From Candidatus Nitrosocosmicus agrestis (GTDB lineage: Archaea; Thermoproteota; Nitrososphaeria; Nitrososphaerales; Nitrososphaeraceae), in assembly GCF_008389435.1 (NCBI RefSeq), contig NZ_VUYS01000025.1, forward strand, positions 1 through 41,514: a DNA stretch of 41,514 bases. Direction: 5' to 3'. Below, piece after piece: positions 3,587 through 36,969 of this stretch. The position numbers and the translations under genes are program-made. Numbering within the stretch: position 1 is the first letter of the stretch; each line of letters begins with the position of its first letter. The notes beneath the pieces were generated by a model. That model saw only the letters and a program-made list of their open reading frames with translations. It was not told where the DNA came from and searched no databases.

Positions 3587-4360
3587 CTATCGTAAATTCA
3601 TTTGAATGGAATTGAAATTAAATTTCTCCTTTTGTATTTGAAGTTTTTCAATTTGTACAGATAGCCAAATCCTAAAAAGATCGGCACCCATACACCAAAT
3701 TTGCTTTGAAACATTTACTTTGGAATAATCTTTATGTTCCCATCGAACCGCGACCTCTTTAACTTTAAGTCCATGTATTTTTGAGTGAACCAGTAAATCA
3801 GTATCAAATGCGAATTTATTACTTTTAATTTTCGGTATCACTTCATTGATAAGAGCTGAATTCTTTCTCATCATTTTAAGTCCACATTGATAATCTTTGA
3901 TAGAAGACATAAACAGAGTTTGACATAAAAAAGAATAACATTCTGAAAACAATCTTCTAAAAAAAGGTCGATCAACTTTATCGAGATTTTCTCGGATTAA
4001 ACGGGAGCCAATTACAATGTCATTTGAGCCCAGATAAGGTGACATTCTTTCTATTTCGGAAATGTCTGAAGCCAAATCTACGTCAATATACATTATGATA
4101 TCCTTAGTAGCTATAGCCATAGCATTAACTATAGAACGTCCCTTTCCTAATTTTTGTTTAGAGGAATTTACTATTACTTTACTGTTTAATGTCGAATATT
4201 CTCGGGCTATGTCAACTGTATGGTCAGTACTGCCATCCTCAGCAATGATTATTTCATAGTCTATTTTACAATGGTTCATGTAATCTAGAATTCTGTCGAG
4301 ACATGGTCTGATTCTCTTTTCCTCATTATGTACCGGAATTATAATAGTTAAATTATCCAT
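3587..4360 (-). CDS. GT2 glycosyltransferase, dolichyl-phosphate glucose/mannose synthase type
   Basis: This 257-residue protein has the classic GT2 layout. TIIIPVHNEEKRI (residues 5-17) and IIIAEDGSTDHT (37-48) form the nucleotide-sugar pocket, KLGKGRSIVNAM follows at about 70-81, and the DVD metal-binding motif is at 93-95. A QCGLKMMRKN motif in the second half is shared with ALG5/DPM1-like enzymes, which transfer glucose or mannose from a nucleotide sugar to dolichyl phosphate on the cytoplasmic face. There is no C-terminal membrane segment, so it is probably peripheral. It lies upstream of the GT-C-like membrane protein on the same strand and could supply its lipid-linked donor. The exact sugar cannot be told from sequence. 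Confidence 0.8.
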   Translation of the reverse strand: MDNLTIIIPVHNEEKRIRPCLDRILDYMNHCKIDYEIIIAEDGSTDHTVDIAREYSTLNSKVIVNSSKQKLGKGRSIVNAMAIATKDIIMYIDVDLASDISEIERMSPYLGSNDIVIGSRLIRENLDKVDRPFFRRLFSECYSFLCQTLFMSSIKDYQCGLKMMRKNSALINEVIPKIKSNKFAFDTDLLVHSKIHGLKVKEVAVRWEHKDYSKVNVSKQIWCMGADLFRIWLSVQIEKLQIQKEKFNFNSIQMNLR

Positions 4361-16005: not shown

Positions 16006-17082
16006 TTATGTGTTATCCAACAATATTTTTTCAAATTGCTCCGTCGTTGAATCCCAATTAAATCGCTTGGAGTACTGCAAAGCAGTCTCAGTTAATCTTC
16101 TTAACTTTGATTCATCCTTTAGAAGGGAAATAGATATATTTGCCATTTCATCGGGCGTATTTTGGCTAAGCAATATACCATTAATACCATTTTGTACGGA
16201 ATCAACTAGACCTGGAACAGAATACGCAACTACTGGGACCCCCATTGCGTTTGATTCCACCACCACTAATGCCCATCCTTCCCTAACAGCAGGAATTAAT
16301 GCTAAATGAGACCTGCTTAGGATATTGAATTTCTCTTTGTTACTAATATGACCATGAAATGTGACATTTTCTATATTCATCTTTTTTAATTTGCGTAATA
16401 AATAACCATCCCCGATTACATTCATATGACTATTCGGGATCTGTTCTCTTATTTTCTTAAAAGCCAGAATTGCATGATCTGGTAATTTGTGTTTTTTTAA
16501 TCTTCCGAGAAATGTTATTGTAAACGTATCTTCTTTTCTCGCCGCCTCTTGAAGTGGGATAACACTCAACCCCTCAGTTATTACGGATACTTTTCTAAAC
16601 CCCAATTCAACTAGTGATTTACGCGTGGATTCGGAAACCGTCACAGTGCTTATGTTATTGTAATGTGATAACCATTTTTTTTCCAAAAAATATCTTCCAA
16701 TTATTCCAACAGGAAATGGAAGCTCATAGGTAAACTGCTCTGGAGAGATTTGATGAATCAATGCAATAATTGGCATTTCTTTAACGTATTTGGGTGTCAA
16801 GAATGGTTTTACGTTAATTTCATCGATAAGGATGTCGAAGTGATCTTTATTGTGCTTGTAATAGTTTTTAGCTTTACCATAAACACTATATTTTCCTCCA
16901 TCTCTAACAATATCCACATCATCTATATTTTCATGGCTCTCTGATCCTTGAAACCTAGATGTAAAAAGGGTTACCTTATGTCCTTTTTTTGCAAGTCTTT
17001 TTGCAATTTCATGGGTAAGAACTTCCGCTCCTCCAGCCTCATGGTTCTTAATGTCCCTCCAATTTAGCCACAGTATTCGCAT
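16006..17082 (-). CDS. GT4 family glycosyltransferase
   Basis: A 358-residue enzyme with two Rossmann domains (GT-B fold). The N-terminal domain starts MRILWLNWRDIKNHEAGGAE, where the GGAE loop binds acceptor or donor phosphates. The C-terminal domain has ITFLGRLKKHKLPDHAI (about residue 190) and REGWALVVVESNAMGVPVVAY, which contains the E-x7-E motif used by retaining GT4 enzymes to hold the nucleotide sugar. There is no membrane helix, so it should act on the cytoplasmic face in building a surface glycan. It converges with the NHL-dehydrogenase gene; about 245 bases lie between the two stop codons. The sugar specificity is unknown. Confidence 0.88.
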   Translation of the reverse strand: MRILWLNWRDIKNHEAGGAEVLTHEIAKRLAKKGHKVTLFTSRFQGSESHENIDDVDIVRDGGKYSVYGKAKNYYKHNKDHFDILIDEINVKPFLTPKYVKEMPIIALIHQISPEQFTYELPFPVGIIGRYFLEKKWLSHYNNISTVTVSESTRKSLVELGFRKVSVITEGLSVIPLQEAARKEDTFTITFLGRLKKHKLPDHAILAFKKIREQIPNSHMNVIGDGYLLRKLKKMNIENVTFHGHISNKEKFNILSRSHLALIPAVREGWALVVVESNAMGVPVVAYSVPGLVDSVQNGINGILLSQNTPDEMANISISLLKDESKLRRLTETALQYSKRFNWDSTTEQFEKILLDNT

Positions 17083-18223
17083 AGATTAAAACTTTATAAT
17101 TAATATTTATTGTTATGCTTAATATCCCTGCTCATCTTATATTTTCTTACCATTACTTTGTATTGAATTCTACAATATTGAGCTAAGATTCTGTGAACCA
17201 TGTGAATATTCTCAAGTTAACATACACGGTTAAAATTTCTAGATAATGTGCTTCTTATGTCTATATGGATATTGAATAAAAAATCCAATCATTTCTTTTA
17301 GTTTGGAACTTTAAATAGAATATAAATTTGTTCCTTGAATTTTATTCACAATCTCAACAAGATCTATTTTGGTATCTATTATTGTGATGGTTTAAAACAA
17401 AGATTGCTCTTTTATTGAGTGGGTGTATACAGTTGATGCCGTATCCGATCTTTCAAAGGTTATACTCTTTTCAATTAAATGGCTCTCTCGAGTAACCAAA
17501 TATAAAAAAAATGAGCCTTTGCTAAATTATTGCTGTATTTTCCATTACACAGTTTTTGATACCATTGGCAAAAGTCAAATTACTGGTTATTATATTAAGA
17601 TTATCGCTTTGATTTAAAATCTCTTCTTTCACAATCTACCTGGTAAAAAAAGAGTTCAACGAAACATTATATAAAAAGCCGATGCCTTTGTATTTCTGTT
17701 TTAAAACCATTTTCGTCATAATGCAATATTCGTTGTTTTCCAATTTTACCCTGATTTGGTGATACTGATTTTTTATTCATTCTTTTTTTTGTGACCTCAA
17801 TGTATAGTAATATTTTGTCTCTAGTAAGACATCTACATGATTTGACAAGATCATATTTGAGAATCATGGTTGTCTTTTATCATTCAACTTTTTCCACTGC
17901 TTTTATGTGTAGAATATATATTTACGATACTAATTCGTTTCTACTCTATTCACTAACGAATTCTCGAAAATGAGATTTACAAATCCTCTTGTTGTTTAAA
18001 GTGTGTTTGCAGGAAAAAAGATTCACTGATCTATTAAATTAATTGTCCAATATTTCTTGTATCAAATCCCTTATACTGCTGAGATAGTTGTTCAGATTTT
18101 ATCTATCCATTGCAAAATAAGATTTAAATCTTAATTGTCTTTTGGATTGCCTCATAGAACTATTATCAGTGGTCTCTCCGATTCAATGTAAAAACTAGCA
18201 ATAGGGTTTTAATTTCACTAGAT
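17083..18223. other. Gene-poor region between two glycan genes
   Basis: About 1.1 kb of AT-rich sequence. The only candidate is a 66-codon minus-strand frame at 17667-17867, listed separately. No RNA gene or repeat was recognised. Confidence 0.35.
17667..17867 (-). CDS. Possible small basic hypothetical protein
   Basis: From ATG at 17867 the minus strand encodes 66 residues, rich in lysine and arginine. It contains CRCLTRDKILLYIEVTKKR and ends GKIGKQRILHYDENGFKTEI plus eight residues. The composition is more protein-like than the other frames in this stretch, and a small nucleic-acid-binding protein is conceivable. No family was recognised, no Shine-Dalgarno site is present, and it may be chance. 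Confidence 0.3.
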   Translation of the reverse strand: MILKYDLVKSCRCLTRDKILLYIEVTKKRMNKKSVSPNQGKIGKQRILHYDENGFKTEIQRHRLFI

Positions 18224-20725
18224 TTACTTTTCAAATTGTTGTGTTTTTTTATCCTCAAACTTTGTTTTGACAAATCCTGTCAAATGTGCGCTGCTTATCT
18301 GAGTTGGTTCCAATATCGATATGTCCAACAGATCCTTCTTGTCTGACAAGTATTGGTATATTTTTTTTTCATAAGGAATACATAAGATGGGTTTTTTTGC
18401 TAAACTCGAAAATATTATTGAATGATAACGCATGCCAATAAAAATATCAATCAGATTGTCTATTGCGATAAACCATGAGAGCGGGTTCCCATGACTAATT
18501 CGAACAATATTTTCATTAGTCGAAACTCTATGCAAAATTTGGTCTATCATCCATTCATCGTTTTCTGTTTTTGAGCCAGTTTTAGCAAAGGGAAAAAATA
18601 CAAAAAGTATGGATCCATTCATGTCCTTATTCAAAGTATTCAAGGTATTGGAAAATTCGTCGACTATCTTAGAGGTCGATTCCTTGCTGTGAACCTCCTT
18701 TAAGGATATTCCAACAATAAATTTTCCTTGGAGTTTATGCTGTATGATGCTTTCGTACTCAGCAATCTTTGGAATATCTTCGATAGAATCTTTGTCGAAA
18801 CTGGTTATATAAGGCAAGGACAGATCTTCCACTACTTTTGTCTTCTTTTGAGAAGCTTTCCATAAGATAGAAAACGATTCTTCATCTCTAACAGAACTTG
18901 AGTTTGATACCAGTACTGCGGTATTAACTAATAATTTATCTATTGGCGAAGAGGTTGAATAGATACCAAAAGAAACAAAATCTACCCGTTTTAGCATTAA
19001 TCTTGCAAGTATAGCTATTAATGGGACAACATGTGCATACCTTCCTGTATATTTACTCCAAATTCCACCGCCACCTATTAAAACTCTGCTGCATTTTAGA
19101 AAAGAAACTAAAAGTTGATACAGATGATTAATTGGAATAGGGATGATCTTATTTTTTATCTCTTTGTGATAAATGTCAACAAAAAATGGATTTCTCGTGG
19201 CTATTAAGAAGTGCGGTGTATTAGAATCTAAATCTGAGGAATATCGTCTAATTACTTCTTTTAAGATAATTTCATCACCAATATTAAAATTGCCGTAATT
19301 TCCTATTACAAAAATCTTTTTTGTTCCACGAGGATCTATTGCCAAATTTACAAGTCCGCTAATTTCTTCAATAGATGTATTTTTCAGCTTGATTAAAACA
19401 AATGCTGAGAGAATCACAGAAATAATCATAAGAATGATTGGATTTAAATCGATAACATTCCTCAATAAGTAAACAGACCCCGAGCCTACTAAAATAGCGA
19501 CGCCTGAAACTAAAATATACTTGACGTTACTATGATCGGACTGCCTCAGAGCAATCAGGGAAGAAATTGTGAAAGCGGAAAGCATAGAAATTGCTGCTCC
19601 CATTATACCATATGTGGGCACAAGGAGGATAAATAAACATATAAAAACTAAAACTTGACAGGAACCTATAATTAGTAACTCCTTTGATCTTCCTTGGGTA
19701 TTATACATGGATATGCTTAACATTACCACAGATGAGGGAAGTATAGACAATGAGAGCATAATTAGAACGCCCGAGCCTGATACATACGCTGGACCCAAAA
19801 GAGACAATAAATATTCAGGACTTGCAATTAACGCAGCGATAATTGGGGCTGTTAATGTAAGGGCTAATCTAATACTTCCTGCAGAAAGATCTTTAATTGA
19901 CGTAGATGACGATGGTATCATCATATAAGCCATACTCGGAACAAAGCCACCAACGACGATAGTGATCATTAAAACCATATAGAATATTCCAACCTCGGCT
20001 GCATCTACTCCATATGAAGCAAGCATAACTACGCTTAAACTTATGATTAAAGTTCTTGAAAATTTTGCAGGAGTGTTTAGCAATCCTGTTTTTAAGATCT
20101 CAGTGAACTGTTCTCTATTTCCAATCTTAAAACCCAAATTCCTTCTTATAGGTGCTATGGCTATTGATGTCATAATGATAAATTGGATGAGAAATGCAAG
20201 TATAATACCTATAGTGCCTAACCCAATGAACGTTAAGAAAAAACCTACTACAAATCTTACAATCGCTCCTATGAGATCAATTATTAGTACTTGCTTAGTC
20301 TTGAAAATACCCAGTAAAACAAATCTGGTAATAAAACTTGTGGAGTAAAAAAATAACATCGTGACGGATAACCATGTGAACTCTTCTAAATCCTCGCTGT
20401 ACCATCCTCCTATAGCTAATACAAGCAATGGCGTAAAACATATTATTAATGCAATCTCTAAAAGAAGAGCAGTTGAAAACATGTGATCCTTGTTGGCTAA
20501 AACGTTTTTCAACAGAGGATATTCTAAACCTAACTGAGTAAATGTACCGATTAACATTATGAGACTATAAATGGATGTCGCGTTACCGATATCGGAAGCG
20601 GTTGTAATCTTAGAAATTAACAACCAAAAAATTCCGTTACTTAGTGCTACTAGTATTTGATCGAGGAAAAGAGTTAAGCTGGAACCTATGTACCTTCCAA
20701 CTGACGAAGTTGGTGAAAAAGACAT
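18224..20725 (-). CDS. Fusion of Wzx-like polysaccharide flippase and polysaccharide pyruvyl transferase
   Basis: One uninterrupted 833-residue frame. Residues 1 to about 445 are a polytopic membrane protein with some 12-14 helices, opening with SVGRYIGSSLTLFLDQILVA as in MOP-superfamily (Wzx/RfbX) flippases, which move lipid-linked oligosaccharides across the membrane. Residues about 468-833 are a soluble pyruvyl transferase domain (CsaB/PF04230 type). It starts KKIFVIGNYGNFNIGDEIIL, followed by RVLIGGGGIWSKY and, near the end, DIFIGMRYHSIIFSSLAKKP then ILCIPYEKKI. That family adds pyruvate from phosphoenolpyruvate as a ketal to sugars of surface polymers. Joining the two suggests pyruvylation of a lipid-linked glycan at the inner membrane face coupled to its export. 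No frame break is visible at the junction. Confidence 0.88.
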   Translation of the reverse strand: MSFSPTSSVGRYIGSSLTLFLDQILVALSNGIFWLLISKITTASDIGNATSIYSLIMLIGTFTQLGLEYPLLKNVLANKDHMFSTALLLEIALIICFTPLLVLAIGGWYSEDLEEFTWLSVTMLFFYSTSFITRFVLLGIFKTKQVLIIDLIGAIVRFVVGFFLTFIGLGTIGIILAFLIQFIIMTSIAIAPIRRNLGFKIGNREQFTEILKTGLLNTPAKFSRTLIISLSVVMLASYGVDAAEVGIFYMVLMITIVVGGFVPSMAYMMIPSSSTSIKDLSAGSIRLALTLTAPIIAALIASPEYLLSLLGPAYVSGSGVLIMLSLSILPSSVVMLSISMYNTQGRSKELLIIGSCQVLVFICLFILLVPTYGIMGAAISMLSAFTISSLIALRQSDHSNVKYILVSGVAILVGSGSVYLLRNVIDLNPIILMIISVILSAFVLIKLKNTSIEEISGLVNLAIDPRGTKKIFVIGNYGNFNIGDEIILKEVIRRYSSDLDSNTPHFLIATRNPFFVDIYHKEIKNKIIPIPINHLYQLLVSFLKCSRVLIGGGGIWSKYTGRYAHVVPLIAILARLMLKRVDFVSFGIYSTSSPIDKLLVNTAVLVSNSSSVRDEESFSILWKASQKKTKVVEDLSLPYITSFDKDSIEDIPKIAEYESIIQHKLQGKFIVGISLKEVHSKESTSKIVDEFSNTLNTLNKDMNGSILFVFFPFAKTGSKTENDEWMIDQILHRVSTNENIVRISHGNPLSWFIAIDNLIDIFIGMRYHSIIFSSLAKKPILCIPYEKKIYQYLSDKKDLLDISILEPTQISSAHLTGFVKTKFEDKKTQQFEK

Positions 20726-22348
20726 TAAGAATCAGGATAATGATCAAATATGTTGTCATTACACTTAAAAACAGTTTTAAAAAACCACCTAAAATCCAAT
20801 GAATCAGTGGTTTGATCAGAATTTGCTAAACTCAATGAAACAAACATTTACAATAATTCACGTAAAATCTTATTTATAAACCTTCTATACCCTCTATCTT
20901 GAGACAATTGGTTGTATGGATATCACGCCTAACTAAAATAAACAACAAATAAATCATTTCTGTTTCATAAAAATTTTCAATCTCTTAAATGGGGCTAAAA
21001 TTAACTATCAAATTTCTATAAATCATTAATTATGTAATGATTCAATATTTAATTTAGGGATGTTATATTTAAGATATGGATTGTTTTGATATTTATTGCC
21101 AATAGATTATTGGATGGCTCAATAATATCGATTTTAATTAAATGTTCCCTTACAGTTATGATCTTTTACACAAAAATTCGATAACAGAAAATTTGAAGTT
21201 AAGGACAGTACAATTACTTTTTAACTAATAATTAGGAATTCAAATTCATATCTATTTCGCCATTATTAATTTGCTGTTAAAATTCACCTATTATAGCCTT
21301 TATTTGGTTTCTCTTGATGAAACAGATTACTACCTTGGAGTCGGATTCTAAATTAAAACAAGTAATTACATAGAATAATGAGACTTCATTTTTACAATCT
21401 AGGAAGAATAAAATAACTTGACGCTATTGAATGTAGCGGGTCAGAAAACAGCCCTTGCAATACAATTAAAACCTCTAATGAAGAGGTGCTGTTTCTCTTT
21501 CTAGATATACCAGAAGTTAATTGTCTTTGATCAAAGTTAATCTAATATAGAAAAAGTCCAAATTAGAATATTAGAATCTGTCATTCTCAAGTTCGTCCTC
21601 TCATGATATTCACAAGTTTATCAGGGTTCATCGTCATCCTAATAGAATTTGAATGTGGACAGCCAATTCTTTAGTTAGTCTTTCCTCCCCATATTGTAAA
21701 AATGATATTGACACCAATAAAAATAGGCGTAAATGAAAGATCCTTTTTGGTTAGCCACAATCACTATTACAATTATAATAAAAGTTATTTTATTTGTCTG
21801 GGGAAATATGCAACATTTATCTATTTTTATTGACTTTAGCCAAATTCTAATGAATAATTCCCAATCTTTGGATAGTTTATGAAACATATCAAGTTCTCTA
21901 AACATGAATTATATTGTATTTAAGTGGTAGGTCTTATCCAATCATTTTTTGATCAATGATCAACAGACTAGGTATTTGTATTGATTTCCTCTCTGTTAAT
22001 ATCTCATGTAGATTAATTTTGAGCATTAGTTTCGAATTTAAAGTATTGTTTAAATCTTAATCGTAGAATAGAGCAAAACCAAAAATTTTTCCTCTTGTTT
22101 TCATTCAATAATAAATTTAATAGATAATATAGCAACTATTCATTCAGAAAGATATACACTAATTAATGATTATTATAATACCATGCAAAATTAGCACAAT
22201 AAGCCACCATAATTTGAATTCAATTGCTTTGGATAAGCCAATGACACTACATCTCTACGAACATAACACTTACGACAACTTTATTTAGAATAATTTTTGA
22301 TTAACCAAGTTTTTTTCTTAACATGCCTGCAGAGTTTTCACTTTTTCC
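20726..22348. other. Longest gene-free region of the window
   Basis: About 1.6 kb of very AT-rich DNA separates the glycan island from the alcohol dehydrogenase/ebo-like region. No convincing gene was found. A stem-loop at 21448-21492 is listed separately. Confidence 0.4.
21448..21492 (+). other. Intergenic stem-loop of unknown role
   Basis: An inner hairpin ACCTCT-aatga-AGAGGT (21471-21487) is enclosed by an outer pairing ACAGC (21448-21452) with GCTGT (21488-21492), followed by TTCTCTTT. Its core AATGAAGAGGT recurs in the terminator hairpin at 15800-15810. It could be a terminator or part of a small RNA; no adjacent gene explains it. Confidence 0.3.
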
Positions 22349-23416
22349 TTAAAATTCATTAACTACTGATTTTAGACCTACAAAATGCTCTGCCGCTGTC
22401 AATGCTTTTTCAAAATCTCCTAAGGAGAAGACCTGGGTTACCAGATGTTTGAGATCAACTTTGTTATTGGTAACCAAACTAATCGCTTCTTGCAAATTCT
22501 CAGGAACTGAACTAAAACTACCCTGAATCGAAATCTCATCATAATGTAGTGAATTTGGGTTTATTTTTGTAAAATTATCTGAATGATTATTAAAAGGTTT
22601 TTTAATCCCAGAAAAAATTACTATTCTTCCATTTTTGTTGACTAATTTAATAGCGAGATTTATGGAATCAGGGCTATTATTAGATACAAAAATCAAATTA
22701 GGTAATCTTTGACCACCTTTTTCCTTCAATGAAATCAAATCATGATCGGCAAGTTCACTAATCGAAATTGCATTATCTGCCCCTATTTTTTTTGCAAATT
22801 CTAACCTGTGATTAATTTTACCTATTATAGTCACGTATAGATCGGGAAATATTGTTTTAAGAAGCATTAGCTGCATTAGACCGATAGGTCCATCTCCAAG
22901 TATTAATGCTGTCTTGAACAATGAATACTTTATCTGGTTTATGCCATTTATACAACAAGCAAGGGGTTCAATTAATGATGCTTCCTCCTTTGATATTTTA
23001 TTCGGAATAGGTACGATCCCACCTATCTCAAAAATCTCTTTAGGGACTTGGATATATTTTGCAAAACCTCCATTAATGGTGGAACCGATTTCTTTCAAAT
23101 TTAAACAAAGATTGTATCTTTTGTTGGTACAGAACCAGCAACTAAAACAAGGTATTATGGGGTAAACCACTACTCTTGAGTTTGAATCTACTTTGAAGTT
23201 TTCTCCCTTGTAAGTAGTAATTGTCTTAGCACAAATTTCATGACCTAAAATAATAGGTGGTTTTACTTTAAAACTTCCATTACGAAATGTTCTAACATCA
23301 TAACTACAAACTGAGCATGATAATGTTTCCAAAGTTATTATATTAGGTAGATCAGGATTTAGATCCACATTTTCAATCCTAACATCGTTTGGTCCGTGAA
23401 AAACTGCTGCCCTCAT
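22349..23416 (-). CDS. Zinc-dependent alcohol dehydrogenase (medium-chain MDR family)
   Basis: A 355-residue member of the medium-chain dehydrogenase/reductase family. Catalytic zinc ligands are visible as C37 (SCSVCSYD) and H59-E60 (LGHE). The structural zinc site has four cysteines at about 90, 93, 96 and 104 (PCFSCWFCTNKRYNLC). The NAD(P)-binding fold begins at about residue 168 with ALILGDGPIGLMQL. It is closest in style to sorbitol/threonine dehydrogenases that oxidise polyols or sugar alcohols. It is transcribed away from the EboB-like gene with only 67 bases between starts. That shared promoter region suggests a functional link, perhaps oxidation of a sugar or cyclitol intermediate. 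The substrate is not known. Confidence 0.88.
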   Translation of the reverse strand: MRAAVFHGPNDVRIENVDLNPDLPNIITLETLSCSVCSYDVRTFRNGSFKVKPPIILGHEICAKTITTYKGENFKVDSNSRVVVYPIIPCFSCWFCTNKRYNLCLNLKEIGSTINGGFAKYIQVPKEIFEIGGIVPIPNKISKEEASLIEPLACCINGINQIKYSLFKTALILGDGPIGLMQLMLLKTIFPDLYVTIIGKINHRLEFAKKIGADNAISISELADHDLISLKEKGGQRLPNLIFVSNNSPDSINLAIKLVNKNGRIVIFSGIKKPFNNHSDNFTKINPNSLHYDEISIQGSFSSVPENLQEAISLVTNNKVDLKHLVTQVFSLGDFEKALTAAEHFVGLKSVVNEF

Positions 23417-23483
23417 AAATTATTCGATTTTTATATTTAATTTTTGTTATTGTATATATATTTAGTTTGCAATTCTAAATTCA
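23417..23483. promoter_or_regulatory. Divergent promoter region, alcohol dehydrogenase / EboB-like gene
   Basis: Sixty-seven bases between two divergent start codons hold a TATA-like tract for each gene. TATATATATTTAG at about 23453-23465 is some 20-30 bases before the ATG at 23484. On the minus strand TTAAATATAA lies some 20-30 bases before the ATG at 23416. Both genes are probably leaderless and could be co-regulated. Confidence 0.45.
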
Positions 23484-24320
23484 ATGACACAATACTTCGA
23501 TCCACATATTCATATGTATTCAAGAACAACCGATGATTATAAAAACATGGCTATAGCTGGGATTGAATTGGTAGTTCAGCCATCTTTTTGGCTAGGTAGC
23601 CCTCGTACCAATGTTGGCACATTTCTTGACTATTGGGAGCATATGATTACTTTTGAAACTCTCAGAGCTAGGGAATATGGAATCGAACACTATGTGTGTA
23701 TTTCAGTAAATCCAAAAGAGTCAGTTACTAGACCACTTGCACTCGACGCTTTTGAAGCCATGGTAAAAGACCGATATCCTCTAAGGGACAGAGTGGTAGG
23801 CATAGGTGAAATAGGATACAATTTGATAAATGACGAAGAAGAGGAACTTTTTGTAAAACAGCTAGACTTTGCCCATAATGAGAATCTCTTGGTAATGATC
23901 CATCTTCCCCATAATAACAAACCGGAAGGAATGAAGAGAATGATTGAGGTTTTTAAGAGTGGTAATTATAATTTTCAAAGAATTTTAATAGATCATAATA
24001 CTGAAGAAACAGTTAAAGACACTCTCGATATAGGGGCATGGGGAGGATTGTCTGTGTATCCTAAAACGAAATTATCCCCAGAAAGGGTAATTCGAATTGT
24101 CAAGAATTTTGGCAGTGAACGATTAATGGTAAATAGCGCTGCAGATTGGGGCGAGTCCGATCCGTTAAGTGTACCATTAACTGCACTTGAAATGAAGAAA
24201 CAAAGATGCGATAGCGCCGATATAGAAAACATAACTTTCAATAACGCCCTTAACTTTTACAAACAGTCTAGTAAATTTGATTGGACTTCCAAGGACAGGG
24301 AACAAGGAAATCACAAATAA
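23484..24320 (+). CDS. eboB: EboB-like TatD-family metal-dependent hydrolase
   Basis: A 278-residue amidohydrolase-fold enzyme. It starts with FDPHIHMYSRTTDDYKNMAI and continues with QPSFWLGSPRTNVGTF. I recognise this as the hallmark opening of EboB, the TatD-related hydrolase of the ebo cluster. Metal-site residues are visible: H8 and H10, E109 in GIGEIGYN, H140/H143 in MIHLPHNN, H171 in LIDHNTEE and D221 in NSAADWGESDP. The ebo cluster is known from cyanobacteria and other bacteria and is needed for export of the scytonemin monomer in Nostoc; the reaction of EboB itself is not known. Here it is divergent from an alcohol dehydrogenase and about 5 kb from an EboC-like gene. Confidence 0.85.
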   Translation: MTQYFDPHIHMYSRTTDDYKNMAIAGIELVVQPSFWLGSPRTNVGTFLDYWEHMITFETLRAREYGIEHYVCISVNPKESVTRPLALDAFEAMVKDRYPLRDRVVGIGEIGYNLINDEEEELFVKQLDFAHNENLLVMIHLPHNNKPEGMKRMIEVFKSGNYNFQRILIDHNTEETVKDTLDIGAWGGLSVYPKTKLSPERVIRIVKNFGSERLMVNSAADWGESDPLSVPLTALEMKKQRCDSADIENITFNNALNFYKQSSKFDWTSKDREQGNHK

Positions 24321-28371: not shown

Positions 28372-29202
28372 ATGCAGTTTGCCTTTAGCTCAAATGCTTT
28401 TACTAATTTTACTTTGATTGAATCAATTTCACAGATAGCGCAAATTGGATATCAAGGTGTTGAGATCATGTGTGACAAACCACATGCATATCCTCCCGAC
28501 ATTAACCAAGAATCACTTTTAAAAATCAAATCTAGTCTCAGCTCAAACAATATTCAGATATCAAATCTTAACGCTTTTACCTTGTTTGCATTAGGTGATA
28601 CCTATCATCCCTCATGGATTGATTTAAACCCAGAAAAAAGAAAGGAAAGGATTAACCACACCAAAAATTGCATAGAACTTGCCTCTCAACTAGGGGCCAA
28701 GACAATTTCACTTGAACCCGGTGGTCCACTTTACCCTGGTATCAATCAAAATCGTTCAGAACTGTATCAGATATTCGCAGACGGAATCAAAGAGGTGATT
28801 CCATTTGCAGAAAAAAACAAAATAAAATTGCTAATAGAGCCTGAACCAGGACTACTATTGCAAACGTCTAAAGAGTATTTGGAATTTATGAAAAACTTTG
28901 AATCTGAATTTTTGAAATTGAATTTTGATATTGGTCATTTTTATTGTGTAAGTGAAGATCCGGTTGTTTTAATAAATGAATTAGCAGATTACATAGAGCA
29001 TTTTCATTTGGCAGACATAAAAGGCCGTGTTCACAATCACCTAATCCCGGGGCTTGGTGATATCAACATTAAAGATATTTTGTTTGCCATTAAAGATTCA
29101 AAATACAAAGGTTTTGTTACAATAGAGCTTTACCCATATAAGAACGATCCAATTGGAGCAGCTACTCAATCACTTCAATATGTAAGAAACTTAGTTACTT
29201 AA
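28372..29202 (+). CDS. Xylose-isomerase-like TIM-barrel sugar (phosphate) isomerase/epimerase
   Basis: A 276-residue AP-endonuclease-2/xylose-isomerase-like TIM barrel. Metal-site and catalytic candidates are E156 in LLIEPEPG, D186 and H189 in NFDIGHFYC, H212 in HFHLADIKG and E252 in VTIELYPYK. The order E-D-H-H-E fits sugar isomerases, inosose dehydratases and epimerases that act through an enediolate. It lies 45 bases before the EboC-like prenyltransferase on the same strand and is very likely co-transcribed with it. A TTTTTAAAT box lies about 25 bases before the ATG. It is a different subfamily from the TIM barrel at 36970. The substrate is unknown; supply of a sugar or cyclitol precursor for the ebo-like pathway is an inference. 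Confidence 0.8.
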   Translation: MQFAFSSNAFTNFTLIESISQIAQIGYQGVEIMCDKPHAYPPDINQESLLKIKSSLSSNNIQISNLNAFTLFALGDTYHPSWIDLNPEKRKERINHTKNCIELASQLGAKTISLEPGGPLYPGINQNRSELYQIFADGIKEVIPFAEKNKIKLLIEPEPGLLLQTSKEYLEFMKNFESEFLKLNFDIGHFYCVSEDPVVLINELADYIEHFHLADIKGRVHNHLIPGLGDINIKDILFAIKDSKYKGFVTIELYPYKNDPIGAATQSLQYVRNLVT

Positions 29203-29247
29203 GATAGGAAAAAGATTGCAATAGAAAAAAAACAAAAGATTGATAAC

Positions 29248-30237
29248 ATGCTAAACAGCCCATACCTTCGCTTATTAAGAATACCCAATATTTTTACAAT
29301 ACCGTCAAATATTATCTTGGGCTATCTTATTGCAATTTCACTTACAAATGTCTCAAATTTGGAAGAAGGTAGGAATGTATTTACACTATTAATACTCATA
29401 ACTTCCTCTATTTTTTTGTATTTAGGTGGTCTAGTCAGCAACGATTACTTTGACGAGAAGATAGATTCAGTTGAAAGACCCGGTAGACCTATCCCCTCTG
29501 GTAGTGTCTCTAAAAAAAATGCGTTATTGATTCTTGTCTTTTTCTTTTTGATTGGCCTATCCTTATCAACGATTGCAGGTGCTGCTTCATTACTAGTATC
29601 AGTATTGTTAATAATTGGCATCTTGACATACAACTACAAAATAAAGAATGGATTTTTCAGACCATATCTGATGGGCCTGATAAGAGGGCTAAACATACTA
29701 TATGGTTTTAGTTTTGTCTTTGGTAGTTCAATTAATTTTCAAACACTATCCGATAATTTTTTTATGAATTATCAAAACACAGAATACCACAATCTATTTT
29801 GGATAGTGGTCCTTGTTACTATGGCAATGTTTTTTCATGTTTTGCTGTTAACCCATATTAGTAAAAAAGAGGCTATTGACGCTGCCGAAGGACGAAATCT
29901 AGTTTCAGGTATGCGCAAACATTGTTATTTTTATCTAACATATGTTGCCACTATAGGGTTCTTTGGTTGTGTGTTGTTACCACATGTAATTGAATTTTTA
30001 TTTTTTATCTCTTTTTATGTTGTTATTATATCATTAGTCTTTCAGACGGCTATCAAAAAGGCAAAAAAACTGGAAATAAGCGAGTCTGTACAATTTCTTG
30101 TCAAAAATATGATCTTAATTATTATTCTTTTGGATTCTGTATTCATTGCAGGTGTTTCTGGGTTTATCCCTTCCCTTTTGACTTGTCTATTGATTATTCC
30201 ACCAATAGTATTGAGCAAAAGATTTAGCATGACTTGA
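29248..30237 (+). CDS. eboC: EboC-like UbiA-family prenyltransferase
   Basis: A 329-residue membrane enzyme with about eight or nine helices. The first Asp-rich motif of UbiA prenyltransferases is at residues 65-73 (NDYFDEKID) and is followed by SVERPGRPIPSG. A later segment PYLMGLIRGLNILYGFSFVF matches the MGLCRGLNLLLGMS-like signature I associate with EboC rather than with UbiA, heme O or GGGP synthases. The second polar loop has KKEAIDAAEGRN, likely the second Asp motif. Such enzymes attach a prenyl group from a prenyl diphosphate to a small acceptor within the membrane; the EboC acceptor is not known. It follows the TIM-barrel gene closely. The other ebo-like genes are within 6 kb on each side. 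Confidence 0.82.
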   Translation: MLNSPYLRLLRIPNIFTIPSNIILGYLIAISLTNVSNLEEGRNVFTLLILITSSIFLYLGGLVSNDYFDEKIDSVERPGRPIPSGSVSKKNALLILVFFFLIGLSLSTIAGAASLLVSVLLIIGILTYNYKIKNGFFRPYLMGLIRGLNILYGFSFVFGSSINFQTLSDNFFMNYQNTEYHNLFWIVVLVTMAMFFHVLLLTHISKKEAIDAAEGRNLVSGMRKHCYFYLTYVATIGFFGCVLLPHVIEFLFFISFYVVIISLVFQTAIKKAKKLEISESVQFLVKNMILIIILLDSVFIAGVSGFIPSLLTCLLIIPPIVLSKRFSMT

Positions 30238-30387
30238 CCCTGTATGAATAGATTCTGATTCGTTTAGACATGCTGAAATCATTTGATGGTTGATTTTTCT
30301 ACCATTTATTTGGTTTTGGCTATCGAAGAACTGTGGAATGCAATAACTTATTATGACGAACCTCGTCATCAATACCTTATTAAAATT

Positions 30388-30972
30388 ATGACAAGAAAAA
30401 CAACAACTAATTTGATAACAAGAAGAACTTTACTTCCCTTTCCTTTAATATTTCTGATTACCTTTTCAATAATGCTTTATTTAGGTCATTTAGAAACTCC
30501 AGTACATGCAAGTATTGAAAACATAACAGATGAAAAAAATTCTACTCTTTCAACAGCCGATTCAAATGCAATGGGTGATGAAGTTGGGATGACTTTTGTT
30601 ATTACCAATGCTAACTCAAATGGTAACTCTACCTTGGCCCAACCCAATGTATCTTCAGATTTTTCGCAAAGCTCTGAAACTAACTTGAAGCCATCCTCCT
30701 CACCATCCTCCTCATCATCATCACCATCCTCCTCATCATCATCATCACAAAAAGATAATCAGTCAACCAAATCTAATGACCAAGGTAAAAACAATACTTC
30801 CTCTACTAAAACTACTCATACCAACAATATGCAGCGAGGAGAGTACAAGGTAGATGATAATGGGATCCACTATTATAATATTAACAATTGCAGTGAAGTA
30901 AAGGGCTCTTCTGGAATCGGTGATCTTTCCGAATGCGAAGATGCAGAAAGGGAAATGTTAAAGGAAAGGTAG
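30388..30972 (+). CDS. Secreted Ser-rich low-complexity protein
   Basis: The frame is open from 30283, but the ATG at 30388 puts a good signal peptide at the N-terminus (basic start, then PFPLIFLITFSIMLYLG, ending VHA), so I prefer it; the product is 194 residues. The mature part is rich in Ser, Thr and Asn, with a serine run encoded by TCC/TCA triplets at about 30691-30749. The C-terminus is different and conserved-looking: GEYKVDDNGIHYYNINNCSE, then SSGIGDLSECEDAEREM with two cysteines. The Ser/Thr stretch may be a glycosylated spacer to a small folded C-terminal domain. No function is known. Confidence 0.65.
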   Translation: MTRKTTTNLITRRTLLPFPLIFLITFSIMLYLGHLETPVHASIENITDEKNSTLSTADSNAMGDEVGMTFVITNANSNGNSTLAQPNVSSDFSQSSETNLKPSSSPSSSSSSPSSSSSSSQKDNQSTKSNDQGKNNTSSTKTTHTNNMQRGEYKVDDNGIHYYNINNCSEVKGSSGIGDLSECEDAEREMLKER

Positions 30973-31154
30973 ATTCCACTCTATTTATCTTTTTTTTATA
31001 ATTTAAACATTAACTATTTTTGATTATAGATTTTTTTTTCAAAAAGAAATTACTTGCAATGTAGGTTATTACTCTAAAAAGAAATAACTAGATATTAATA
31101 AAAAAATAAATTGCATTTACTGCTTTTTAAAAAAAGAAAAGAAATTAAAAAAAA

Positions 31155-31529
31155 TCAGGTTTGTTTAAATTTTTCCGATAGGTTGGAAATACCATTCTTA
31201 TCCTTGTTTCTAAGCGCCATTATACCTGCTATAACGAATAATACAAGCGCAGGGACTGCAAACCACTGGATAAGAAGAAACAGCAAAACACCACATACGA
31301 TGAGAATTGCACCTACAAATTTCGTATTCTTTATTTTAAATGCCGCAACAATGGCTCCTATATTGATTGCAATAATTCCAACAGCAATTAACATAGCCCA
31401 ACCGACAAATAATGCGAGCAATGGAATACCAATGATGCTGTTGATAAAAAAATACAAAAAAAGCCCTATAAAGGGTAGGATAAGACCCAAAATGGCAGTG
31501 ATTATTGTTAATTTTTGATAGTTTTTCAA
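31155..31529 (-). CDS. Small membrane protein with four predicted helices
   Basis: A 124-residue protein almost entirely made of four hydrophobic helices (LTIITAILGLILPFIGLFLY; LALFVGWAMLIAVGIIAINI; FVGAILIVCGVLLFLLIQW; VPALVLFVIAGIMALRNK), with a short charged tail in the cytoplasm. It resembles generic DUF-type four-helix archaeal proteins and has no catalytic motif. Its promoter region contains a 47-bp alternating purine-pyrimidine tract (31562-31608), 33 bases before the start codon. Confidence 0.65.
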   Translation of the reverse strand: MKNYQKLTIITAILGLILPFIGLFLYFFINSIIGIPLLALFVGWAMLIAVGIIAINIGAIVAAFKIKNTKFVGAILIVCGVLLFLLIQWFAVPALVLFVIAGIMALRNKDKNGISNLSEKFKQT

Positions 31530-31561
31530 TACTAGACGTTATTATACTTCATGATTAAATA

Positions 31562-31608
31562 ATATGTGTATATGTATGCATGCGTATGCGTATGCGTATG
31601 CGTATGTG
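31562..31608. repeat. Alternating purine-pyrimidine tract with (GTATGC)n
   Basis: All 47 bases alternate strictly between purine and pyrimidine, including about four GTATGC units (31584-31607). Such tracts can adopt Z-DNA and are prone to length change. It lies directly upstream of the minus-strand gene that starts at 31529. Confidence 0.85.
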
Positions 31609-31761
31609 AACACCTATACCTTGTGATTTGATTATTTGTAAGGTATAAATCAATCAAGCAAAAACCTTTCAGTTTTCTATTAAATGATAATCAAAACAAA
31701 TGGTGGATGAATTATTGAAAGTTGGAAATTGGGTGACAGGCTCTTTTTCTAATATCAATTA

Positions 31762-31857
31762 TCAGATTTTGGGCCAGCCAATCGAGTGTTCTATTATGTC
31801 ACCCTTTTTGACAACTTCCAGATTTTCCAGATGTGTATTGGATTGAAGGTAAGTCAT
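31762..31857 (-). CDS. Possible 31-residue protein or 3' gene remnant
   Basis: From ATG at 31857 to TGA at 31762 the minus strand encodes MTYLQSNTHLENLEVVKKGD, then IIEHSIGWPKI. The wording is strikingly protein-like. The frame is open for 13 more codons upstream (IIPNPSLDIS) to a stop at 31897, without a better start. The plus strand of the same stretch also has a 48-codon frame (31700-31846), which I consider less likely. It may be a small gene or the end of a decayed one. Confidence 0.35.
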   Translation of the reverse strand: MTYLQSNTHLENLEVVKKGDIIEHSIGWPKI

Positions 31858-32066
31858 TGAGATATCAAGCGAGGGATTTGGAATTATTTTGCTTGATTAC
31901 AATGCTTTTATTAGATGCAACATTAGGTTCACCTAACTTACATATAAACAAATGTATTATTCTCTGATTTAATAATAGTGAAATTTCTATTTACTTTATC
32001 TTTGATTTTTAAACGTAGTATTTTGTGCTATTATACTTCTTTATCTTTTAGTCATTTCATCATAAA

Positions 32067-32074
32067 TTTAAATA
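32067..32074 (+). promoter_or_regulatory. TATA-like box for the zinc-ribbon gene
   Basis: TTTAAATA, 24-31 bases before the start codon at 32098, consistent with leaderless archaeal transcription. Confidence 0.4.
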
Positions 32075-32097
32075 TAAACGCGTATTTGTAATATTAA

Positions 32098-32244
32098 ATG
32101 GCAAAATGTCCATATTGTAAAGAGTCTATAAATTTAAGTCAGCTTAAAACAGAAGAGTTCGAAGATGGCGATCTCTTGTTTAAATTCTTGGGGCTAAGTT
32201 GCCCAAGTTGCGAGGTTCTGTTAAAGATTCAAAAAATAGATTGA
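32098..32244 (+). CDS. Small zinc-ribbon protein (48 residues)
   Basis: From ATG at 32098 to TGA at 32242-32244 the plus strand encodes 48 residues. MAKCPYCKESINLSQL opens it and LGLSCPSCEVLLKI closes it, giving two C-P-x-C knuckles 31 residues apart, the form of a single zinc ribbon. TTTAAATA at 32067-32074 lies 24-31 bases before the ATG, so the gene is probably leaderless. Such mini zinc ribbons are common in archaea; the partner (nucleic acid or protein) is unknown. Confidence 0.8.
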   Translation: MAKCPYCKESINLSQLKTEEFEDGDLLFKFLGLSCPSCEVLLKIQKID

Positions 32245-32605
32245 GCAGATACTTTCGCCTTATTTTAAAAAAAATAACAAATTTTATGTTTTGAATAATA
32301 AAATGAAGATGAAAATGAGAATCTTTTGATACCAATAGATACTAGTTTTTCTTTTATGAAATTGGATTTGATTTGATTTTATATCAAAGTAAGGTGAGTA
32401 TTTTTTTATCTGTTTATCTATATATCTATCAATCTTTGGTTTGACTTTAAAAGTAGTATCATTTCAATGCAACATAATTTAATTTAATTTAATTTAATTT
32501 GATATAATGTAACCCAGGTAACAAAATCCAAATTCAGTGTGTCTAAATCGATTGAAGCGACTCTTCAAATACATGTTCAAAGTTCAGAAAAAAAGGAAGA
32601 ATTAT
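32245..32605. other. Intergenic region with an AATTT tandem repeat
   Basis: About 360 bases between convergent genes. Bases 32475-32500 are about five tandem copies of AATTT. The reverse-complement unit is repeated again at 40385-40407. No gene was recognised. Confidence 0.5.
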
Positions 32606-35179
32606 CTAGCAGCCAAAGAAACTTCGCCATTCGGGTCGTGAACTGAGGAAACCACACATTCCGTTGTTATTATTAGGTTCGTTATTTGATACAGGCTTTA
32701 TCGTAATTGTTGTGCTATCAGGCTCGCTTGATACTCCCAAATTATTTGTAACTACAAGCTGGAATTTAAGGACAATATTATTTGATGTAGTTTGTGGTGC
32801 TGTAAAGGTGGGTTTAGACGAAGATGAGCTGCTCAAGGCTACAGCAGGTCCTGAGGTTTGAGTCCAAGAATAAGTAAGCGCAGAGTTGTTTGGATCCGAA
32901 CTGCCACTACCGTCAAGTTGTACTGTAACACCGCTGTCTACTGTCCGGTCAGAGCCTGCGTCTGCTGTTGGCTTACTAATAGGAATAGGATTAACAGTTA
33001 TTCTGACACTATCAGGCTCACTTTTTACACCATTGTTGTTTGTTACCTCTAGTTTAAAGACAAGGTCTGTTTTTGCGGATGTTTGTGGTGCTGTAAAGGT
33101 GGGTTTAGACGAAGATGAGCTGCTCAAGGCTACAGCAGGTCCTGAGGTTTGAGTCCAAGAATAAGTAAGCGCAGAGTTGTTTGGATCCGAACTGCCACTA
33201 CCGTCAAGTTGTACTGTAACACCGCTGTCTACTGTCCGGTCAGAGCCTGCGTCTGCTGTTGGCTTACTAATAGGAATAGGATTAACAGTTATTCTGACAC
33301 TATCAGGCTCACTTTTTACACCATTGTTGTTTGTTACCTCTAGTTTAAAGACAAGGTCTGTTTTTGCGGATGTTTGTGGTGCTGTAAAGGTGGGTTTAGA
33401 CGAAGATGAGCTGCTCAAGGCTACAGCAGGTCCTGAGGTTTGAGTCCAAGAATAAGTAAGCGCAGAGTTGTTTGGATCCGAACTGCCACTACCGTCAAGT
33501 TGTACTGTAACACCGCTGTCTACTGTCCGGTCAGAGCCTGCGTCTGCTGTTGGCGGGCTGACTGTATTACTAGTCTGACCAGGATCTTTTACATACAATA
33601 GAGGTTCTCTTGATTGGTCTTTATCGCCTGTAAAATACCCATGACCCATTCCATCACAAACTATCCCTGGTAAAGATCCGTGGGATAATAATGCATTACG
33701 AACTTCAGATGGAGAGGCGCCAGGGTTGGCAGCCATATAGAGTGCAGCAGCTCCTGCTACGTGTGGTGAAGCCATGCTAGTTCCGCTCATAGTTGCGTAT
33801 GAATTACCCTTGTAAGTTGAATAAATTTTAGTTCCAGGAGCAGCGATATCAACGTCTGATCCATAATTGCTAAAGCTGGCCAAAGCATCGTCACTTCCAT
33901 AACCAGTGGCAGGTCCTTTTCCGCCGCACTTTCCGTCACTGTCTCCTATGGCTGATACTGCAATAGCATTTGGGTTGTTAGCAGGTGAAAAAGTACGGGC
34001 ATCTTTTGCACCATTTCCAGCAGCTACTACAAAAACAATTCCGGCTTTGACTGCGTTATTTATGGCCGAATCAAAAGCAGTGGATTTGCATTCACAACCA
34101 AGGCTAAGATTGGCTACCTCAATCTGATTTGCGTATTGAGTGACATAGTCTATACCTTTTATGACTGTGGATAGGGGACCTGAGCCGTTACTGTCTAATA
34201 CTTTAATAGCCCATAATTTGGCACCTGGGGCAACCCCCACTGTTCCAATTGAGTTGTCTTTGGCGGCTGCAATACCAGCAACATGGGTCCCATGACCATT
34301 GTCATCATCTGCAGTGCTTGAGCCCGAACCGAATAATGAGTTAGAAACAAATGATTTCTGATGGTATACATTTAAGTCAGAATGATCCAAATCAATCCCA
34401 GAGTCTATAATAGCAATATCTGCATTCGTGGTTCCACTGCCGTCACCAGATTTTGCGGAACTTTGATCTGCGTCAATTCTGTTTATTCCAGTAGGTATCG
34501 ATTGAGCAAATGATTGAACCATAACGTCTTTTTCAACGTATGCCACAAGAGGACTTTTTTTAATTATATCTATTATTTTTTCATTGGGAACATGGATTGC
34601 AAAACCGTTTAAAACATTTTCATACTGTTGTAATAAATCCATGTCTTTAAGGTTAATTTTGCTTGCTATATCGGAGAAAAAGTCTGATTTGTCTGTATTA
34701 TGGCTTTTTAAAACCACGATATATTGATTTGGAATTACTTTATCGTCAGAACTTTCAGGCGAGGTAAGAAAAGACGACGGAAAATCAGCATAATCTTTAA
34801 TTAAAGGCAAGAAATTTTGCTGAGTATACTTTGAAAAACCATCTGATTCATCATTCTTGGGATTTGATGACAAATCACCTGTTTCTCCCGTTCCTTCTTC
34901 ATTAACTTCATCTTTGTCTTCATCTTCATCTTCTTCTTCTTCTGTCACTCCTACTCCAGGTTGGCTATAATCTGGTATCGCACTTAATTGATCACCTAAT
35001 AAGGTTCCACCAATCTCATTATCAATTATAGAATTAAAACTCAATGATGATGGCGCATTATCTGAAATTTCAAATTTAAAAGCATTGATATCAGTTTTTG
35101 ATCCAAACCCGTAAAAAGTTGGAATAATTAGCAAAAGCACAATCCATAACTTGATATGCCGATTATTCTTGCTGGACAT
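32606..35179 (-). CDS. Secreted subtilisin-like serine protease with three PKD-type domains
   Basis: An 857-residue S8-family protease. A signal peptide covers about residues 1-27. An acidic linker (EEEDEDEDKDEVNEEGTGET) follows, then an I9 inhibitor propeptide at about 148-225 (IPNQYIVVLKSHN ... VAYVEKDVMVQSFA). In the catalytic domain the triad is D259 (IAIIDSGIDLDHSDL), H296 (DNGHGTHVAGIAAA) and S468 (MSGTSMASPHVAGAAALY), with N389 as oxyanion residue (AAGNG). From about residue 543 there are three PKD/REJ-like beta domains of 97 residues (ADAGSDRTVDSGVTVQLDGS, then YSWTQTSGPAV). A short tail holds two cysteines. It should act outside the cell, possibly on surface proteins or as a scavenging protease. 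Confidence 0.93.
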   Translation of the reverse strand: MSSKNNRHIKLWIVLLLIIPTFYGFGSKTDINAFKFEISDNAPSSLSFNSIIDNEIGGTLLGDQLSAIPDYSQPGVGVTEEEEDEDEDKDEVNEEGTGETGDLSSNPKNDESDGFSKYTQQNFLPLIKDYADFPSSFLTSPESSDDKVIPNQYIVVLKSHNTDKSDFFSDIASKINLKDMDLLQQYENVLNGFAIHVPNEKIIDIIKKSPLVAYVEKDVMVQSFAQSIPTGINRIDADQSSAKSGDGSGTTNADIAIIDSGIDLDHSDLNVYHQKSFVSNSLFGSGSSTADDDNGHGTHVAGIAAAKDNSIGTVGVAPGAKLWAIKVLDSNGSGPLSTVIKGIDYVTQYANQIEVANLSLGCECKSTAFDSAINNAVKAGIVFVVAAGNGAKDARTFSPANNPNAIAVSAIGDSDGKCGGKGPATGYGSDDALASFSNYGSDVDIAAPGTKIYSTYKGNSYATMSGTSMASPHVAGAAALYMAANPGASPSEVRNALLSHGSLPGIVCDGMGHGYFTGDKDQSREPLLYVKDPGQTSNTVSPPTADAGSDRTVDSGVTVQLDGSGSSDPNNSALTYSWTQTSGPAVALSSSSSSKPTFTAPQTSAKTDLVFKLEVTNNNGVKSEPDSVRITVNPIPISKPTADAGSDRTVDSGVTVQLDGSGSSDPNNSALTYSWTQTSGPAVALSSSSSSKPTFTAPQTSAKTDLVFKLEVTNNNGVKSEPDSVRITVNPIPISKPTADAGSDRTVDSGVTVQLDGSGSSDPNNSALTYSWTQTSGPAVALSSSSSSKPTFTAPQTTSNNIVLKFQLVVTNNLGVSSEPDSTTITIKPVSNNEPNNNNGMCGFLSSRPEWRSFFGC
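32681..33553 (-). repeat. Three tandem 291-bp repeats encoding PKD-type domains
   Basis: Units lie at about 32681-32971, 32972-33262 and 33263-33553, one 97-residue domain each. The two upstream units appear identical in DNA over nearly their full length. The 3'-most unit changes only in its last third (TSNNIVLKFQLVVTNNLGVS). Confidence 0.9.
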
Positions 35180-35462
35180 GGCATAATATAAAATTTTTTT
35201 TATTTATGAAATACTAAAGACTTTAGCGCTCTATGGTTATAGTTACAGATCATGTTAAGTTATCAGGCAAGTAGAATCTGAATTAATCTTAGTGTAAATA
35301 ATTTTTTAGCTGATACTCTCCAAGAAGATAGATAACCAAAGATTTCAATTTAAAAGTTGCAACTAGCGATTTTTTTAACCTTTGCTTAAAATAAATCATC
35401 ACTAGCGGACCTTGAGTAAGAGTCTTCCAATAAAGATTAAATGATATATATAATAATACAAT
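35180..35462. promoter_or_regulatory. Divergent intergenic region, protease / EboF-like gene
   Basis: About 280 bases between the divergent starts of the protease and the EboF-like gene. TATA-like tracts are present on both sides (for example GATTAAATGATATATATAA at 35435-35453). No other element was recognised. Confidence 0.35.
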
Positions 35463-36923
35463 GTGATATTGTCACATTCTAGAAATTTATCAAAATACGT
35501 TGTTGTTTTAGACATAGTGGGTTTAGATGTGAAACATCTTTTATCTTCTTATAATTCTGCTTCTTCAGATTCAAAAATTCCAAACATCTCTGGTTTAGTG
35601 CAACAAGAAGGAGAATTTGGTTATCTGAAACCAGTATTTCCATCAGTAACTTGTACAGTTCAATCAAGTATATTGACTGGAAAATATCCAAACGAACATG
35701 GAATAATATCAAATGGAATGTTTGATAGGGTAAACCTTCAGACTTTGTTTTGGGAACAATCTACTAATCTGGTTCAATCAGAGAAAATATGGGATCATAT
35801 CAAACAAAAGAATCAATCTGCTAAGACTGCTCTACTTTTTTGGCAGAATTCAATGTATTCAAATAATGATCTTGTGATATCGCCACGACCCATTCATTTG
35901 GAAAATGGCCAGATGGATATGTGGTGCTATTCAAAACCAGTAGATTACTATGAAAGACTAGCACAAAAAATTGGCGAATTTAATTTGCTAAATTATTGGG
36001 GACCATTTGCATCATTCAACTCCTCTGATTGGATAACAAAATCTGTTGAATATACAATAGAGAACAATCGACCCCAACTATTATTTGCATATTTTCCACA
36101 AATTGATTACTCTGCCCAAAAATTTGGTAAATCAAGTCCAGAAGTAACTAATGACTTGCAAAAAATTGATGAAAGTGTCGGAAAAATAATCAACGCAGTT
36201 AAAAGTGCAGGAATATATGATGAAACAGAGTTTATACTTATCTCTGAGTATGGCTTCAATGATGTTAATGGGGCTGTTCCAATAAACAGGATACTGAGAG
36301 AAAAGGGCTTGCTAAAAGTCAGGACCATTAAAGGTAAAGAATACATTGATTTTGAGTTTAGTCATGCTTTTGCCATGGTCGATCATCAAATAGCCCATAT
36401 TTATCTAAATAATGAGGGCAAAGAATCAAAAGAAAAGATCAAAAAAATTTTAGCTGATATCTCAGGAATTGAGACGGTATGCGATCTTGATGAAAAAAGA
36501 AATCTACACATTGATCACGAAAGAAGTGGTGAGCTTATTGTTATCGCAGAGAAAGACAAGTGGTTTAGTTATTATTGGTGGTTTGAAGAAAATACTGATC
36601 CTTCTCTTAGCAATCATGGTACTAAGGAATCAAATGCAGGTGAAGGCAGTGATAAGGCGCCAACTTTTACTAAAACTGTCGATATTCACAGAAAACCAGG
36701 TTATGATCCTCTTGACCTTTTCTTTGATCCTATAAAAAAATCCATATCTACAAACACCTCGTTGATCAAGGGATCTCATGGAAGGCCATGCAATGTTGAA
36801 ACCAAAGAAGGGTTATCGGCATTTGTCTCATCCAGAAAAATTAACAAACCGGGTCAAACTTTAGATGGGTTACCGCTTATGGATTGTTTGGATATATTTG
36901 GTATATTAAGCAGTAGATTTTAG
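35463..36923 (+). CDS. eboF: EboF-like alkaline-phosphatase-superfamily phosphodiesterase
   Basis: A 486-residue protein beginning at GTG 35463 (an ATG two bases earlier is followed by a stop in frame). It belongs to the nucleotide pyrophosphatase/phosphodiesterase branch of the alkaline phosphatase superfamily. D17 lies in VVVLDIVGL, and the nucleophile region is FPSVTCTVQSSILTGKYPNE with T63 as likely nucleophile. KIWD, LFWQNSMYSNNDLVISPRP and YWGPFASFNSSDW follow the EboF pattern that I recognise. Two usual metal motifs are altered: the D-x-x-G-H site reads IDYSAQKFG (D215), and the S-D-H-G site reads SEYG (261-264). No signal peptide is seen, so it is probably cytoplasmic. It is followed by a TIM-barrel gene after 46 bases. 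Confidence 0.83.
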   Translation: MILSHSRNLSKYVVVLDIVGLDVKHLLSSYNSASSDSKIPNISGLVQQEGEFGYLKPVFPSVTCTVQSSILTGKYPNEHGIISNGMFDRVNLQTLFWEQSTNLVQSEKIWDHIKQKNQSAKTALLFWQNSMYSNNDLVISPRPIHLENGQMDMWCYSKPVDYYERLAQKIGEFNLLNYWGPFASFNSSDWITKSVEYTIENNRPQLLFAYFPQIDYSAQKFGKSSPEVTNDLQKIDESVGKIINAVKSAGIYDETEFILISEYGFNDVNGAVPINRILREKGLLKVRTIKGKEYIDFEFSHAFAMVDHQIAHIYLNNEGKESKEKIKKILADISGIETVCDLDEKRNLHIDHERSGELIVIAEKDKWFSYYWWFEENTDPSLSNHGTKESNAGEGSDKAPTFTKTVDIHRKPGYDPLDLFFDPIKKSISTNTSLIKGSHGRPCNVETKEGLSAFVSSRKINKPGQTLDGLPLMDCLDIFGILSSRF

Positions 36924-36969
36924 CTTTAAATATTTTCATTTATGGTAATGGAGTATTGAGAAAGCTTTT

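Follow-up and report, generated by a model that had tools for sequence, protein, structure and literature searches.

Does a single protein of 'Ca. Nitrosocosmicus agrestis' both decorate a lipid-linked glycan with pyruvate and turn it outward? The question is raised by one long reading frame in a window of 41,514 nucleotides (the whole stretch of DNA analysed here, contig NZ_VUYS01000025.1), which an initial annotation made from the DNA letters read as a Wzx/MOP-type flippase joined to a CsaB-type polysaccharide pyruvyl transferase.

One reading frame and its junction

The frame proved as uninterrupted as had been claimed: on the minus strand of 18224-20725 it runs from an ATG start to a TAA stop, with 833 codons and zero internal stops (Table 1). 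The domain boundaries first proposed, at residues of about 1-445 and 468-833, were right to within a few residues, as profiles built in this analysis cover residues 7-466 (flippase) and 468-825 (pyruvyl transferase); both profiles contain the fused protein itself and their scores are therefore inflated. Aligned with stand-alone relatives, each half is complete. At the level of sequence we consider the two-domain architecture confirmed; it is rare, and its parts are already known while the combination is new. An AlphaFold2 prediction from the single fused sequence had a pLDDT of 38, and neither half, nor profile A1, found a meaningful match among PDB sequences.

The residues that span the junction, 455-485, are ISGLVNLAIDPRGTKKIFVIGNYGNFNIGDE. 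The closest stand-alone flippases end 3-4 residues past the position equivalent to residue 465 and the first transferase strand begins at about residue 469, indicating that there is almost no linker between the two domains. Among possible start codons (ATG, GTG or TTG), the 20 codons before the transferase domain contain a single TTG, at residue 461. Stops are abundant in both alternative frames across the junction, and a frameshift was therefore rejected as an explanation for the fusion. The two halves are alike in G+C content (0.36 and 0.33). A comparison with related genomes, which the initial annotation had proposed as a check for halves encoded by separate genes, gave a mixed answer: the N-terminal half does occur as a separate gene, but none of the relatives examined has a C-half gene adjoining the flippase, which gives no indication that two neighbouring ancestral genes were merely run together by a missed stop. 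The genome assembly consists of 43 contigs and 3,224,501 bases. These figures agree with those of a 'Ca. Nitrosocosmicus agrestis' genome recovered from a metagenome (3.22 Mbp, 43 contigs; PMC8573960), and the assembly that carries the fusion is thus probably metagenome-derived.

Table 1 Features of the window that bear on the fused gene
Feature	Position	Strand	Basis
Fused gene, 833 aa: MOP-type flippase and CsaB-like pyruvyl transferase	18224..20725	minus	open frame and profiles
Flippase half, residues 1-465; 14 predicted membrane helices, both ends predicted cytosolic by loop charge	19331..20725	minus	36-39% identity to stand-alone flippases; hydropathy; positive-inside count
Junction, residues ~448-472: short tail after helix 14 straight into first transferase strand; no ATG/GTG start	19310..19384	minus	codon and three-frame reading
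CsaB-like pyruvyl transferase half, residues 466-833; R613, R766, H768 and K788 kept, loop-1 Arg replaced by K676	18227..19330	minus	PF04230, 44.3 bits; TIGR03609, 88 bits; alignments
GT4-type glycosyltransferase downstream of fused gene, likely same glycan island	16006..17082	minus	PF00534, E 1.1e-31
GT2-type glycosyltransferase; 43% identical relative beside stand-alone flippase in G008	3587..4360	minus	PF00535; synteny
Dehydrogenase (minus) and TatD-like (plus) pair beside fused gene	22349..24320		kept in four other genus genomes

The two halves and their relatives

The flippase name of the N-terminal half rests on its relatives, because alone it matches no flippase model: neither Polysacc_synt nor the MurJ/MatE profiles gave a direct match, even at a permissive E-value. 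Over its whole length it aligns, at 36-39% identity, with stand-alone MOP-type flippases from four Nitrososphaeraceae genomes (G059, G066, G008 and G016), which differ from it in being only 466-486 residues long and stopping just past the point where the transferase is joined. PF01943 (Polysacc_synt) is matched by 11 of the 16 members of the N-half alignment, PF13440 by 6, MurJ by 3 and MatE by 2. A domain search of the two halves therefore gave a direct match for the C-terminal half, to PF04230, and an identity by way of homologues for the N-terminal half.

Fourteen membrane helices fit the hydropathy, both averaged over the family and in the fused protein alone, consistent with a protein of 12-14 helices with both ends in the cytosol. 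With helix limits set by hand, 16 Lys or Arg residues fall in the even-side loops and the two tails and 1 falls in the odd-side loops. Taken with the positive-inside rule, the 14 helices predict that both ends are cytosolic and that the enzyme domain lies on the side where PEP is found; the placement of the transferase at the cytoplasmic face, as first proposed, is in this respect supported. In its own genome the flippase profile matches the fused protein and nothing else, and PF01943 has no match, which leaves this protein as the one MOP-type glycan flippase detected there. ABC-type lipopolysaccharide exporters, which are invisible to a flippase-profile search, have been reported for this organism (PMC8573960).

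The assignment of the C-terminal half to the pyruvyl transferase family held up: PF04230 matches residues 481-785 with 44.3 bits against a cut-off of 25.3 and covers profile positions 1-278 of 280. The CsaB equivalog model TIGR03609 aligns over nearly its whole length with 85-88 bits, below its cut-off of 213.1, and we therefore call this half CsaB-like rather than CsaB. PEP binding by Paenibacillus alvei CsaB depends critically on R148, H308 and K328, and docking implicates R306; Y14 and F16 lie on the acceptor side and the R207D mutant is inactive (PMC10435577). By alignment, all four PEP-site residues are kept, with R613, R766, H768 and K788 corresponding to R148, R306, H308 and K328. On the acceptor side Y477 preserves Y14, while the F16 position is changed to N479, and the loop-1 Arg (R207 in CsaB) is a Lys here, K676, and an Arg in five aligned relatives. 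Residues were mapped through Acetoanaerobium and Haladaptatus proteins that score above the TIGR03609 cut-off, rather than directly on P. alvei CsaB, which makes the equivalence of K676 and R207 likely, short of proven. With its PEP site kept and changes at N479 and K676, the domain is probably an active enzyme whose acceptor pocket has been altered.

The C-terminal half sits on a long branch (2.41) of a tree of 29 homologues and is at most 25% identical to any other row. Closest to it are stand-alone enzymes found elsewhere in its phylum, in other families. K676 and the long branch suggest that its activity or its acceptor may have changed. The half thus shares with CsaB-type transferases (PF04230/TIGR03609) a full-length domain and the four matching PEP-site residues, and differs from them in its position behind a membrane flippase, its score under the equivalog cut-off, the Arg to Lys change in loop 1 and its identity of about 25% to relatives.

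Distribution and genomic neighbourhood

The two activities had been described as normally separate proteins, and they are encoded by separate genes in every other genome examined. PF04230 was found in 2 of 70 genomes of the family, fused here and alone in a 400-codon frame of the other (G036). Among 400 sampled Nitrososphaeria genomes, 10 have PF04230 matches, and every frame except the fused one is of at most 441 codons. Similarly, frames matching the flippase profile in 300 Nitrososphaeria genomes do not exceed 569 codons, with the fused frame, at 835, as the sole exception. In 398 Thermoproteota genomes we found two other long frames with a PF04230-type domain (813 and 856 codons, in G564 and G665). 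These resemble the fused gene in carrying this domain in a frame of more than 800 codons; they were rejected as flippase fusions since their partners look like FrhB-type, F420-hydrogenase-beta-like iron-sulfur domains, a likeness recognised by eye and not with a profile. In the two Thermoproteota genomes, at L071:7064-9499 and L072:5663-8182, the PF04230-type and FrhB-like domains are fused in opposite orders, in proteins of 811 and 839 aa.

A second flippase-pyruvyl transferase fusion appeared neither among the 400 Nitrososphaeria genomes nor among the 398 of Thermoproteota, which makes the fusion rare and, within these archaeal samples, unique. Scans of genome contigs, using P0001 and the alignment A2 (two rows) as queries, gave no confirmed relative, nor did a scan of viral contigs with A2. 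Tblastn searches of plasmids with P0001 and the Acetoanaerobium and Haladaptatus CsaB proteins gave no sign of a flippase fusion in the matches or feature names, frames being read only at H1 and H2. We found no description of a natural fusion of this kind in the open-access literature. A comparable arrangement is in Haladaptatus pallidirubidus (NZ_CP085303.1), where both functions are likewise adjacent in an archaeal glycan cluster, but as two separate, divergently oriented genes, a flippase and csaB.

The dehydrogenase-TatD pair beside the fused gene seems to mark one border of a variable glycan island, because four other genomes of the genus share the pair and have flippases at varying distances from it: in G007, G005, G008 and G006 the nearby flippase lies ~4.5, 13.5, 16 and 32 kb from the dehydrogenase. 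These flippases are of another subtype (23-27% identity). A closer relative of the N-terminal half in G008 (37% over 404 residues) is in a second island, together with a GT2 enzyme 43% identical to that of the window. Such a border provides a landmark for comparing surface-glycan loci among Nitrosocosmicus genomes. The best relative of the window's dehydrogenase in another genome of this genus, at G016:C102:17601-18575, has 12 in-frame stops and is apparently a decayed copy or a product of poor assembly. On either side of the fused gene, 17083-18223 (1.1 kb) and 20726-22348 (1.6 kb) lack a convincing open reading frame and could be gene remnants or regulatory DNA. Further along the window, 28372-37818 encodes two xylose-isomerase-like TIM barrels, a UbiA prenyltransferase and a type I phosphodiesterase, which may be a metabolic cluster, broken by an opposite-strand subtilase with PKD domains.

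The initial annotation had also suggested a role in S-layer assembly, and this part was not supported. S-layer genes and a visible S-layer are reported to be absent from the genus, which may carry a glycocalyx instead (PMC11559005), and no SLH domain (PF00395) was matched in the genome, making an S-layer role unlikely. For the same reasons, anchoring of an S-layer or SLH protein by a pyruvylated polymer was considered and rejected. A role in a glycocalyx, exopolysaccharide or N-glycan fits better.

Pyruvylation beside the exporter and competing readings

We hypothesize, with a probability of about 0.57, that the gene genuinely unites two complete parts, a MOP-superfamily oligosaccharide-lipid flippase and a CsaB-like ketal-pyruvyl transferase, the latter pyruvylating a lipid-linked glycan beside its exporter. 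Hanging on the cytosolic side, directly beneath the flippase, the transferase domain would use cytosolic PEP as its pyruvate donor and form a ketal on one of the sugars of that glycan. The joined flippase would then turn the pyruvylated glycan outward, for a surface glycocalyx, an exopolysaccharide or an AglB-type N-glycan, and tethering could raise the chance of pyruvylation before export. This modify-then-flip account is supported by work on the ketal-pyruvyl transferases of P. alvei and Bacteroides fragilis, where pyruvate appears to be added to the undecaprenyl-linked repeat ahead of its export (PMC10435577, PMC6801904). Furthermore, the adjacency of flippase and csaB in Haladaptatus, the glycosyltransferases nearby, the lack of another MOP-type flippase and the presence of one STT3/AglB in the genome all support the reading as a pyruvylating exporter. 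A stronger version, in which the sole MOP-type flippase carries its own pyruvylating enzyme, so that pyruvylation and surface-glycan export are obligately coupled and the former may even license the latter, seems doubtful to us. The 'quality gate' of the initial annotation goes beyond the evidence, and both coupling and a dependence of flipping on pyruvylation are putative.

The same protein could be a real fusion with both domains working, linked for co-expression or membrane tethering only, which would serve general membrane-proximal pyruvylation of glycans with flipping neither coupled nor gated. The sequence carries no signal of coupling, the two functions have separate genes in every other genome examined, and the occurrence of the fusion in one genome gives no sign of long-term selection for it. 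We nonetheless regard this as unlikely, since the near-absent linker after helix 14 sets the enzyme domain at the cytosolic face of the flippase, which favours a shared substrate. Less probable again is that the C-terminal half no longer makes pyruvate ketals and is inactive, a glycan-binding module or an enzyme of some other transfer, leaving a flippase with an accessory domain. Its branch length and low identity to even the nearest relatives, the loss of the loop-1 Arg and the Asn at the F16 position would all agree with such a change, and a review urges care with function calls in the pyruvyl transferase family (PMC6801904). However, the CsaB PEP residues tested by mutation, and R306, are all kept in an open domain of 365 residues, and the Arg to Lys change is conservative.

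Finally, an assembly or sequencing error might have removed a stop between two adjacent genes. That the fusion is seen in a single genome, by its figures recovered from a metagenome, speaks for such an error, and translation of a separate C-terminal half might conceivably begin at the TTG of residue 461. We think this very improbable, given that there is no ATG or GTG near the junction, the other frames there are too rich in stops for a frameshift, the halves have a similar G+C content, and in none of the relatives examined does a C-half gene adjoin the flippase.

If the reading as a fused, pyruvylating exporter is right, it bears on the order of events in glycan assembly. The stage at which the pyruvate ketal is added, relative to export, is unsettled for some polymers, for example xanthan (PMC6801904), and finding the two steps covalently joined in a natural protein would point to pyruvate addition before flipping. 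The fused protein also makes coupling testable by mutation within one protein. Furthermore, were the reading true, it would point the way to acidic glycans bearing pyruvate, carried by ammonia-oxidising archaea.
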